A stretch of 57,633 bases of DNA from Methanobrevibacter olleyae (lineage in GTDB: Archaea > Methanobacteriota > Methanobacteria > Methanobacteriales > Methanobacteriaceae): contig SUTG01000009.1 of the NCBI GenBank assembly GCA_015063035.1, positions 1 to 57,633 of the forward strand, written 5' to 3'. How positions within the stretch are numbered: position 1 is the stretch's first letter; each line of letters starts with the position of its first letter. Below the pieces are notes generated by a model. It did not search any database, was not told the DNA's origin, and was given only the letters and a program-made list of their open reading frames with translations. Shown one piece after another: positions 50,211-53,007 of the stretch. Made by a program: the position numbers and the translations under genes.

Positions 50211-50636
50211 TTATCCTTCAGCATCTAATTGTGCTTTTAATGGGGAAGGTCCTAAATCTTTAATTCTGTTTACCATCATTTTTACAGAACTAGCGAATTT
50301 TTCTCCTTCAGAAGCAGAAATCCAGTCGTGGTGGACTCTTTCTCTTCCGATTCCCATATCTTCGACTAATTTATAAACTAATCTCATTCTTCTGTCAAGT
50401 TTATAGTTACCTGCATCGTAGTGGCAGTCACCCATGTGGCATCCTGCTACGAATACACCATCAGCACCGTCTCTGAATGCTTTTAAAATAAACTGAGGGT
50501 CAATTCTTCCAGAACACATTACTCTAATAACACGAATGTTAGGTGGGTATTGCATTCTTGCAGTACCTGCAGTATCTGCTCCACCATAGGAACACCAGTT
50601 ACAACAAAACATTACAATTTTTACATCTTCAGACAT
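50211..50636 (-). CDS. mvhD: Hydrogenase subunit MvhD
   Basis: A 141-aa [2Fe-2S] protein connecting the hydrogenase to heterodisulfide reductase Hdr[17 protein letters not shown] near the N-terminus and [13 protein letters not shown], then [15 protein letters not shown] are characteristic. It is the first gene of the operon. A GAGGAGG ribosome-binding site precedes the ATG, about 430 nt downstream of the predicted transcription start; the leader holds the hairpin array. Confidence 0.97.
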
Positions 50637-51120
50637 AGAGTTTATCCTCCTCTATTAAAATTTTAGTTTATAGTCCTAAAAAAAATTTAATTTAATCTAA
50701 GACTCATCCAACTATTTCAATCTAATAATCATCAAACCATATCATCAAATCAAAACTAATACGGTCCAATTCATTTAATACCGATTGAAAATATTAAACT
50801 TTATTAAAATTGAAATAATTGAGATATTCAACCTAAATAGTTTTCACTATTTTTAATCTATAAAGATCCAAATCAAAAAATCTTAATAGATTACTTCTTG
50901 AATCCAAATCAAAAAATTCAAGAATTCCGTTTTAACTTTAAAAACCAAATCAAAATTTTTAAAGTTATAGATTTCAATCTAATTTCTTTTTTAAAAAAGT
51001 TTTTCAAATCTATATTAAAGTATGTTAAGGCATACCTTAATCTCAAATCATCGTACGCTAATGAGCTAGCTCAGCTTAACATTAATGTACTGATTATATA
51101 TTATATTAAAGATTAAATAT
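50637..51120 (-). promoter_or_regulatory. mvh operon promoter and long structured leader
   Basis: Minus-strand TATA-like sequence lies at about 51096-51110 (TTTAATATAATATAT), placing transcription start near 51065-51075 and giving an about 430-nt leader. Around the start are the 12-bp palindrome TGAGCTAGCTCA (51062-51073), an inverted repeat TTAAGG-N4-CCTTAA (51025-51040) and an alternative GTATG/CATAC pair. Downstream comes the hairpin array (listed separately). The region is non-coding on both strands. Confidence 0.55.
50762..50967 (-). ncRNA. Array of hairpins with a shared loop in the mvh leader
   Basis: Three adjacent hairpins lie at 50854-50893, 50895-50924 and 50933-50967. Their stems (14 bp with one mismatch, 9 bp, 12 bp) have unrelated sequences, but the loops, read on the minus strand, are TTTTTGATTTGG, TTTTTGATTTGG and TTTTGATTTGG. 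A degenerate fourth at 50762-50783 has a CGGT/ACCG stem and a loop ending TGAATTGG. A further hairpin at 50835-50852 has the GAAA tetraloop (AAATAGT-GAAA-ACTATTT). Different stems around one conserved loop argue for selection on RNA structure. Confidence 0.6.
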
Positions 51121-51736
51121 AAAGGTTACTTGGAAAGGAAATACACAAGATTTATATACTATAATACTTTTTTAAAAAAAGATATTACATGGTCAAAAAT
51201 TTTATTTTAATTTATACGAAATATTATCGAAAAATAGCCAAGATTATTAATGTATATATAAAAATAACAGATTAATTCTACTGAAATTTAAAATAAGGAA
51301 CTTAAATAAAAATAACTTAAGTTTTAACCTATAAAAACAATTTTTATAATTAGGAATAAAATTTGAAAAAATGGCTAAAAATTAAGGAATGCCTAAATAA
51401 AAGATTTTATGATATTTTTGAAAATTGTAAATTTTGAAAAAAATATATTTTAAAGAAAAATTTTAGAAAAAAATTTTAAAAAAATTTAATTAAAAAATTT
51501 TGAATACTTTAAAAATATTTTAGAAAAAATTATAAAAAAATTTAATTAAAAAATTTTAAAAAATTTAAAAATATTTTAGAAAAAATTATAAAAAAAATTA
51601 GAAATATTTTAGAAAATACTATAAGAATATCTTAAAGTATTTTTGAAAAACTAAAAAATAAAAATTGAAAAAGGTTAAGAGCAAATACTCCCAACTAGAG
51701 AAAAGATTTTGTTCAAACTTTTTCTAAAAGTTTGAA
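51121..51736. repeat. AT-rich gap between sufB and the mvh promoter
   Basis: About 616 nt with no convincing gene. Roughly 51470-51615 contains two and a half imperfect copies of an about 57-bp A/T unit including AAAAATATTTTAGAAAA. The left end holds the sufB terminator hairpin. Confidence 0.6.
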
Positions 51737-51737
51737 C
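51711..51737 (-). terminator. Hairpin at the sufB stop codon
   Basis: A perfect 12-bp stem GTTCAAACTTTT / AAAAGTTTGAAC with loop TCT touches the TAG stop of sufB (51737-51739). On the minus strand it is followed by AAAATCTTTT, a weak T tract. Confidence 0.65.
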
Positions 51738-53007
51738 TACATACCATCTAAACTCATGTCAATCATTTTTTGAGTTTCAGCAGCTAATTCATCTGGCAAT
51801 CCAGTGATGTCCATGCTTAAGAAACCTCTAACAATCATGGAAGCCGCTTCCTCTTCAGTCAATCCTCTTGAAGTCAAGTAGTAAATCTCTTCCTCATCGA
51901 TTTGACCAACTGCTGCTTCGTGAGACATTTCAAGGTTTGCTGCATTTGCCTCAAGTTCCGGAACTGCATAAATGGATGAATTGTCATCCAAAACCAATCC
52001 ATGACATTCTAAGTGTCCTTTTACGTTTGGAACGTTTCCTGATAAATGCCCTCTTGAATATATTCTGGATTGATCATTTGCAACAGAACGGGATATGATC
52101 TCTGCACTGGTATTCGGCGCATTCAAAATAGCCCTTGAACCCATATCAATAATTGAGTCGTTGATACCGCTTTGAATACTTTGGAATAATGCCCTAGCAT
52201 TTTCACCATTACAGTAAGTGGTAGGATAAGACTGGATGGATTTGACAGGACTGGTAAGATGTAATTATTGATGTAAGTACTGTTCTTTTCCTGATAAATT
52301 GCAGTTCTTGGACGCACTTCAACCTGTTCCGCCCAGTTATGGACCATAGTGAAAGTTACTTTTGCTCCAGGCTTGATGTAAATTTCAGAAACCCCAACGT
52401 GAAGTGCAGAGGAAATGTCATCACCAGTTGCACAACCAGTTATAAGGTGAAGCTCAGAATTCTCTTCAGCAATAACAATATTGTGAGCAGTTTGCATAAC
52501 ATCTTGGTCAGCAATGAACATACATGCTTGAACTGGGAAGATTTCCTTGGTTCCAGGTAATGATCTGACGAAATAACCACTATATGCATCATTTTCAGAT
52601 TCCTGTAAGGCACATTGGGCAGTGTATTTGTCAACATCAGGTTTTACAGCTTTCCACAAGTAATCCTTCAACCAGGAATGCTTATCCAATGCAACACCTA
52701 AGTTCATAAGTTCAATGGAATCAGATATGGAATGTGAAAAGATATTTGATTGGTCCATTTGAACAAAAGAACCTGCTCTCTCTTCAGAATTAGCATCCAC
52801 TCCTACTTTTAGGATAGTCTTTTGAGTTTTCTTGTCAATGTCCTTCAAATCGTCAAGTACATCAAAAGCATTAATGTCCTCAGTAGTGAAGTTTTCAATG
52901 ACAACATCTGTACCTAACGCTGCCTTTTTATCTTTAGCCTTTTCGGCATCATGAGTTACATTCTGCACAACCAACACATCCTTTAAATCCTTCTTTTCTA
53001 ATGTCAT
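51737..53007 (-). pseudogene. sufB: SufB/SufD-type Fe-S scaffold, apparent single-base frameshift
   Basis: Scaffold partner of SufC in iron-sulfur cluster assembly. The N-terminal frame runs from 53007 and contains the SufBD core (beta-helix region with HNWAEQVEVRPRTA) to YINNYI; the next bases then read out of frame until 52123. A second frame carries the C-terminal part (MGSRAILNAPNTSAEIISRS, GHLECHGLVLDDNS, LEMSHEAAVGQI). Inserting one base near 52255 (for example TTA ACC) joins them into one about 423-aa protein. No other decay is visible, so a sequencing error or a very recent mutation is likely. It overlaps sufC by 59 nt. Confidence 0.88.

Follow-up and report, generated by a model that had tools for sequence, protein, structure and literature searches.

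In CsrA/RsmA arrays (CsrB, RsmZ and CsrA-bound leaders), stems of unrelated sequence carry one short loop word, A(N)GGA, which is read multivalently by an RNA-binding protein; CsrA is bacterial. ANTAR hairpin pairs (EutV, NasR) likewise stand in tandem in leaders and combine variable stems with fixed loop bases, in this case with six-base loops and an overlap with a terminator. Sm/Lsm sites are U-rich and single-stranded and need U-runs only, and no Sm arrangement with several copies displayed in a single leader is described. Among methanogens, structured mRNA leaders, for example in Methanolobus psychrophilus, serve post-transcriptional control; the abstract on them makes no mention of repeated hairpins with a constant loop. 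Here, we compare with these systems a hairpin array upstream of mvhDGAB in Methanobrevibacter olleyae (genome of 103 contigs and 2.28 Mb, labelled G000), found in a window that comprises the whole analysed stretch of 57,633 nt.

Three adjoining hairpins, A, B and C, lie on the minus strand in the predicted mvhDGAB leader and have the loop (U)UUUUGAUUUGG in common (Table 1), with coordinates and loops as an earlier note on this DNA had described them. That note had also placed a weaker fourth hairpin at 50762-50783; this is a 4-bp alternative that overlaps hairpin D and was not chosen by folding, and D is the true fourth. Across 58 loop-motif hairpins, the loop consensus is UUUUGAUUUGR; GAUUU never varies among them, and UUUU hardly does. 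The base after the loop GG varies (GGT in hairpin A, while D has GAT). In the predicted fold, wobble pairs may form between the last two G of the loop and two U, and UUGAUUU stays open. By comparing this layout with the described systems, we found that it resembles CsrB/RsmZ or ANTAR sets in its unrelated or variable stems and fixed loop letters, and that it departs from each of them in its particulars. The loop word differs from that of CsrA, and with an inconstant base after GG it does not fit ANGGA; no CsrA-family gene was found in the organism's own genome (95.6% complete; positive controls detected). There are more than two hairpins, with loops of 11-12 bases rather than six and no evident terminator, and a search for ANTAR proteins gave no match in the genome, and none in the control genomes either. 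Many of the loops open with U4-U6 after a purine, as Sm/Lsm sites would, whereas the second half of the word, GAUUUGG, is equally constant and falls outside an Sm site, and several copies are displayed in one leader.

Table 1 Features of the mvhDGAB leader and its gene, with positions in the window. Covariance-model E-values are rough.
Feature	Position	Strand	Sequence or stem	Loop (position)	Remark
mvhD (FlpD, PF02662)	50211..50636	minus			gene 1 of mvhDGAB; ATG at 50636
Start-codon hairpin	50634..50655	minus	ATAGAG(GAGGATAAA)CTCTAT; as RNA AUAGAG-GAGGAUAAA-CUCUAU		
Hairpin D	50731..50770	minus	14-bp stem ATTGGACCGTATTA/TGATATGGTTTGAT	GTTTTGATTTGA / GUUUUGAUUUGA	covariance-model E 1.1e-4
Hairpin C	50854..50893	minus	TAATCTAT(T)AAGAT/ATCTTTATAGATTA	TTTTTGATTTGG / UUUUUGAUUUGG (50868-50879)	one mismatch
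Hairpin B	50895..50924	minus	TTCTTGAAT/ATTCAAGAA	TTTTTGATTTGG / UUUUUGAUUUGG (50904-50915)	covariance-model E 8.7e-6
Hairpin A	50933..50967	minus	TAACTTTAAAAA/TTTTTAAAGTTA	TTTTGATTTGG / UUUUGAUUUGG (50945-50955)	perfect 12-bp stem
Hairpin P2	51013..51041	minus	TTAAGGTATG/CATACTTTAA		
5'-end element P1	51053..51091	minus	AGTACATTAATGTTAAGCTGAGCTAGCTCATTAGCGTAC		39 nt; hairpin closed by GUAC/GUAC
mvh promoter TATA box	51113..51125	minus	CCTTTATATTTAA		distance to P1 fixed across mvh promoters

The operon starts with mvhD and continues with mvhG, mvhA and the polyferredoxin gene mvhB. Transcription in archaea starts roughly 25-30 nt downstream of the TATA box. Since a conserved TATA box and P1 are placed upstream of the array, the predicted transcription start also lies upstream of it, and with a start ~30 nt past the TATA box the mvhDGAB leader has a predicted length of about 455 nt. 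The earlier note had put this length at about 430 nt. The whole leader folds 7.8 standard deviations below dinucleotide shuffles (z -7.8), with 0 of 100 shuffles equally stable. Regulation of the operon is seen in M. ruminantium M1, which carries the array: mvhG was up more than 2-fold when this species was co-cultured with an H2-forming bacterium, compared with a monoculture on H2+CO2 (PMC2812497). Elsewhere in the window, two overlapping open frames at 51737-53007 on the minus strand correspond to the N- and C-terminal parts of SufB, an apparent frameshift in sufB that may be an assembly error or real.

Two other paired elements of the leader, P1 and the start-codon hairpin, extend beyond the genus. 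P1 lies about 30 nt past the TATA box and marks the predicted mvh 5' end. Of 139 family genomes, 76 contain its core 16-mer GCTGAGCTAGCTCATT, mostly as a single copy. Nearly all of the Methanobacteriales mvh leaders read (e.g. L016, L025, L028, L037 and L084), spanning Methanothermobacter (AAGTACAATTATAGTAC) and Methanobrevibacter, have a GUAC-closed P1 hairpin whose interior varies yet still pairs. P1 may act as an RNA hairpin at the 5' end or as a start-site operator. Hairpin P2 has no loop motif here or in most species; G015 has the motif on it, and G001 has a one-letter variant there. The start-codon hairpin, which holds the Shine-Dalgarno sequence of mvhD in its loop, is kept across genera, including those free of the array (with GGAG/CTCC in M. 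curvatus and Ca. Methanoflexus). Downstream of P2, a palindrome, CTTTTTTAAAAAAG (50986-50999), occurs in nearly all genus leaders, and TTTTTTAAAAAA occupies the region downstream of P2 in many M. smithii-group leaders.

By scanning both strands of the window, all 57,633 bases of it, for hairpins of 9 or more pairs, we found the array to be the sole site with at least three hairpins in 400 nt having a common 8-letter loop word. Among the copies of TTTTGATTTGG in genus leaders, 41 of 43 are enclosed by a stem of 9 bp or more; outside the leaders of these genomes this holds for only 4 of 24 copies, and with shuffled flanks for 8.7%. The two low copies in leaders, with 6 pairs each, belong to hairpin C of G014 and hairpin P2 of G015, both of which form longer interrupted stems on folding. 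A chance origin of the array is ruled out.

The covariation of the stems was examined both between orthologues and between hairpins. For hairpin D, which has the best covariation among the hairpins, 97.9% of cells were paired in ten leaders, and this value fell to 31-51% when the partner was slid by 1-3 columns; three pairs were changed on both sides, and G·U was counted 32 times versus zero A·C. For hairpin C, 98.0% of cells were paired in nine sequences, again with both-side changes in three pairs. These orthologue alignments are drawn from close relatives and their covariation is modest, the three-pair count being reached by 30 (C) and 54 (D) of 500 shuffles. In an ungapped comparison of 13 sequences that represent hairpins A, B, C, D and P2, all nine stem pairs covary with both sides changed and ten loop columns are invariant, in line with the earlier claim of self-complementary, mutually unrelated stems. 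Pairing between hairpins reached 95.7% versus 55.1% in shuffles (0 of 500), a value from sequences chosen as motif hairpins that shows stems to be unrelated yet complementary and should not be read as an unbiased rate of discovery. Of 54 unique hairpins, 51 have a more stable fold on the sense than on the antisense strand (-10.0 versus -4.5 kcal/mol); random leader positions also favour the sense fold (-5.7 versus -2.8), and the preference is partly one of base composition. Together, the presence of G·U without A·C in hairpin D and the better sense fold point to an RNA of the minus strand as the structured molecule.

To place the array among relatives, MvhD was sought in 100 genomes and the upstream regions of its orthologues were compared, including those of M. 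ruminantium M1 (G012), M. smithii PS (G038), Methanothermobacter thermautotrophicus delta-H (G070) and Methanosphaera stadtmanae (G045). The genus sample consists of M. ruminantium and of metagenome-assembled genomes from ruminants and horse; the mvh leaders of three incomplete genus genomes (G003, G007 and G018) are absent from the comparison. With one-letter variants counted, all 15 of the genus leaders that are readable end to end, own genome included, have two or more motif loops, three or four being usual, and one motif loop is visible in the leader of G017, which is cut off. In the 14 same-genus relatives, M. ruminantium M1 among them, the stems change yet pair and GAUUU is constant. Hairpin A is present in all genus leaders read, with changing stem letters, and hairpin B of G014, G001, G015 and G017 retains its stem with a different loop, while in G015 the loop word is carried by P2 and by a stem at -87. 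As the loop word moves between stems in this way, its position appears to matter less than number and display. In each of 12 comparisons, conservation was higher in the leader than in the 250 nt that precede the promoter, clearly so in closer species (97.8 versus 86.0% and 98.9 versus 85.1%) and barely so in the most distant, G001 (66.1 versus 65.4%). The array is absent from the mvh leaders read in other genera, M. smithii included; M. smithii and its relatives have a leader of about 160-195 nt from P1 to ATG. The expectation of a conserved loop and covarying stems upstream of mvhD in relatives thus holds within the genus; the array is absent outside it. The selection on RNA structure that had been proposed for the array is borne out by the covariation, by a tolerance of G·U confined to the sense strand and by conservation above that of neighbouring non-coding DNA. 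Judging from these comparisons, the array is a cis-acting RNA element that is specific to the genus and kept by selection.

The array is associated with one operon only. The exact 12-mer occurs in a few copies per genome, in tandem only at mvh. With a covariance model, whose E-values are rough, genus mvh leaders score E from 6e-6, and at E <=0.01 all matches in 19 genus genomes are mvh leaders, except for G006:C108 (E 0.008), which has no matching hairpin. Among 139 family genomes, only G119 and G107 from another genus reach E 0.01, the latter with a weak single match. G119 contains three mvhD-type contigs (C3, C10 and C46; L236, L139) and three copies of the P1 core, and its array contig was also retrieved as L139, isolate RGIG7892; the mvhD leader of this contig resembles that of the window's genus, and a home of the array in another genus was rejected in favour of what is most likely a mixed bin. 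A probably mixed bin is also seen in the incomplete genome G010, with mvhD copies on C39 (L096) and C146 (L002), one leader having the array and the other being of the M. smithii type. Candidates for a second home within genomes were rejected as well, as the 28.4-bit matches in G005, G006 and G013 are antisense within a 470-aa open frame and further weak covariance matches lie in other coding or unrelated sequence. A lone TTTTTGATTTGG at a site known from one species only, in G014 (L062, G014:C6:20143-20154), forms a 14-pair hairpin without a long open frame through it. Searches of the genus and family genomes gave no sign of a regulon, with no other gene carrying the array, and an element at mvh only is not a shared regulon site. 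In Rfam 15 no family scored above its gathering cut-off, and none matched the leader alone at E up to 1; the open-licence literature gave no account of a structured mvh leader in methanogens.

The explanation that we favour, at roughly even confidence, is that the array forms part of a structured, cis-acting mvhDGAB leader RNA of Methanobrevibacter sensu stricto whose repeated loop word is bound by a trans-acting factor. The two to four or more hairpins would be interchangeable scaffolds that hold UUUUGAUUUGR single-stranded, and the loop word would be read in trans. The reader is most likely a protein that binds single-stranded RNA sequence-specifically, and it may grip several loops at once. 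Its binding would set either the lifetime of the mvhDGAB mRNA or access to the start-codon hairpin, with the outcome that hydrogenase output may be matched to the supply of H2 or formate. Constant loops on changing stems had been taken earlier as a putative multivalent protein-binding site, which remains a fair reading. The searches for a complementary RNA came up empty, which makes a protein the foremost candidate for the partner. The U-run at the start of the loop makes an Sm-like/Lsm protein a candidate, since archaeal Sm-like proteins bind uridine-rich RNA (PMC4500138), and the genome has two Lsm-type genes; the constant GAUUUGG argues for a reader that is more specific than an Sm-like protein. 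A narrower version, in which a lineage-specific archaeal RNA-binding protein has the mvh mRNA as its sole target, reads the copies of UUUUGAUUUGG and tunes the H2-uptake hydrogenase of major rumen methanogens to the H2 or formate available, is put forward only tentatively and is rather doubtful as it stands. It would be unusual for a factor to have one target mRNA per genome, which speaks against the favoured explanation. The occurrence of the start-codon hairpin in genera that lack the array speaks against it too, as any link between the two is then conjectural.

Constant loops on changing stems would also suit an RNA partner through kissing loops, and small RNAs that target mRNAs exist in archaea (e.g. 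PMC3510493). The loops could then be targets of a trans-encoded small RNA with CCAAAUCAAAA that pairs with several of them at once. We consider this quite improbable, as outside mvh the 12-mer is single-copy and mostly within or antisense to open reading frames, at sites that differ by species, and the operon's own sense RNA has no loop complement of more than 7 letters, though a shorter or interrupted complement may exist. That the hairpins are mRNA stabilizers or insulators, shielding the message from nucleases with a loop word that has no dedicated reader, is an unlikely reading; it is in keeping with a leader that is strongly folded throughout and with structured methanogen mRNA leaders that have been tied to post-transcriptional regulation (PMC5378194), but it leaves unexplained both the fixed loop letters on changing stems and the placement of the loop word on different stems in different species.

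Termination in archaea employs U-tracts, and with U5-U6 in many loops the U-runs could be pause or termination sites (intrinsic U-tract or FttA/aCPSF1-type) in a transcriptional attenuation mechanism, where folding or a factor would decide on read-through. However, the run is no longer than U4 in several orthologous loops (those of hairpin A in most species and of hairpin B in G005, G006 and G013) while GAUUUGG is constant, and attenuation is accordingly a poor prospect. A long, conserved and structured leader beside a nickel enzyme operon might also suggest an aptamer or composite riboswitch that senses a small ligand directly, such as nickel or an H2-related cofactor. The hairpins are separable, though, and differ in number and position by species, there is no conserved junction or core, and Rfam offers no match even at the relaxed threshold, leaving a riboswitch very improbable. 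A feature of the DNA itself (cruciforms, repeats of a small mobile element or an operator array) is the least probable of these readings: inverted repeats in DNA look alike at first sight, but stem D has G·U with no A·C, the stems are mutually unrelated and the array has no copies elsewhere in the genome. A REP- or MITE-like mobile repeat was rejected with dispersed copies absent and the array at mvh only, and a phage or mobile-element origin has no support, with no phage match.

Returning to a leader RNA whose loops are read by a factor in trans, its meaning would lie in the enzyme that it may tune. In hydrogenotrophic methanogens, MvhADG with HdrABC catalyses the H2-dependent step that couples the reduction of ferredoxin and heterodisulfide. 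To our knowledge, control after transcription has hardly been explored in methanogens. The array is a compact, single-operon element in which hairpins appear to be gained and lost one by one between close species, in a lineage that holds M. ruminantium and many of the rumen species responsible for ruminant methane. Importantly, the loop word would provide a clear probe for the partner, by which the tuning of hydrogenase in these archaea may become directly testable.
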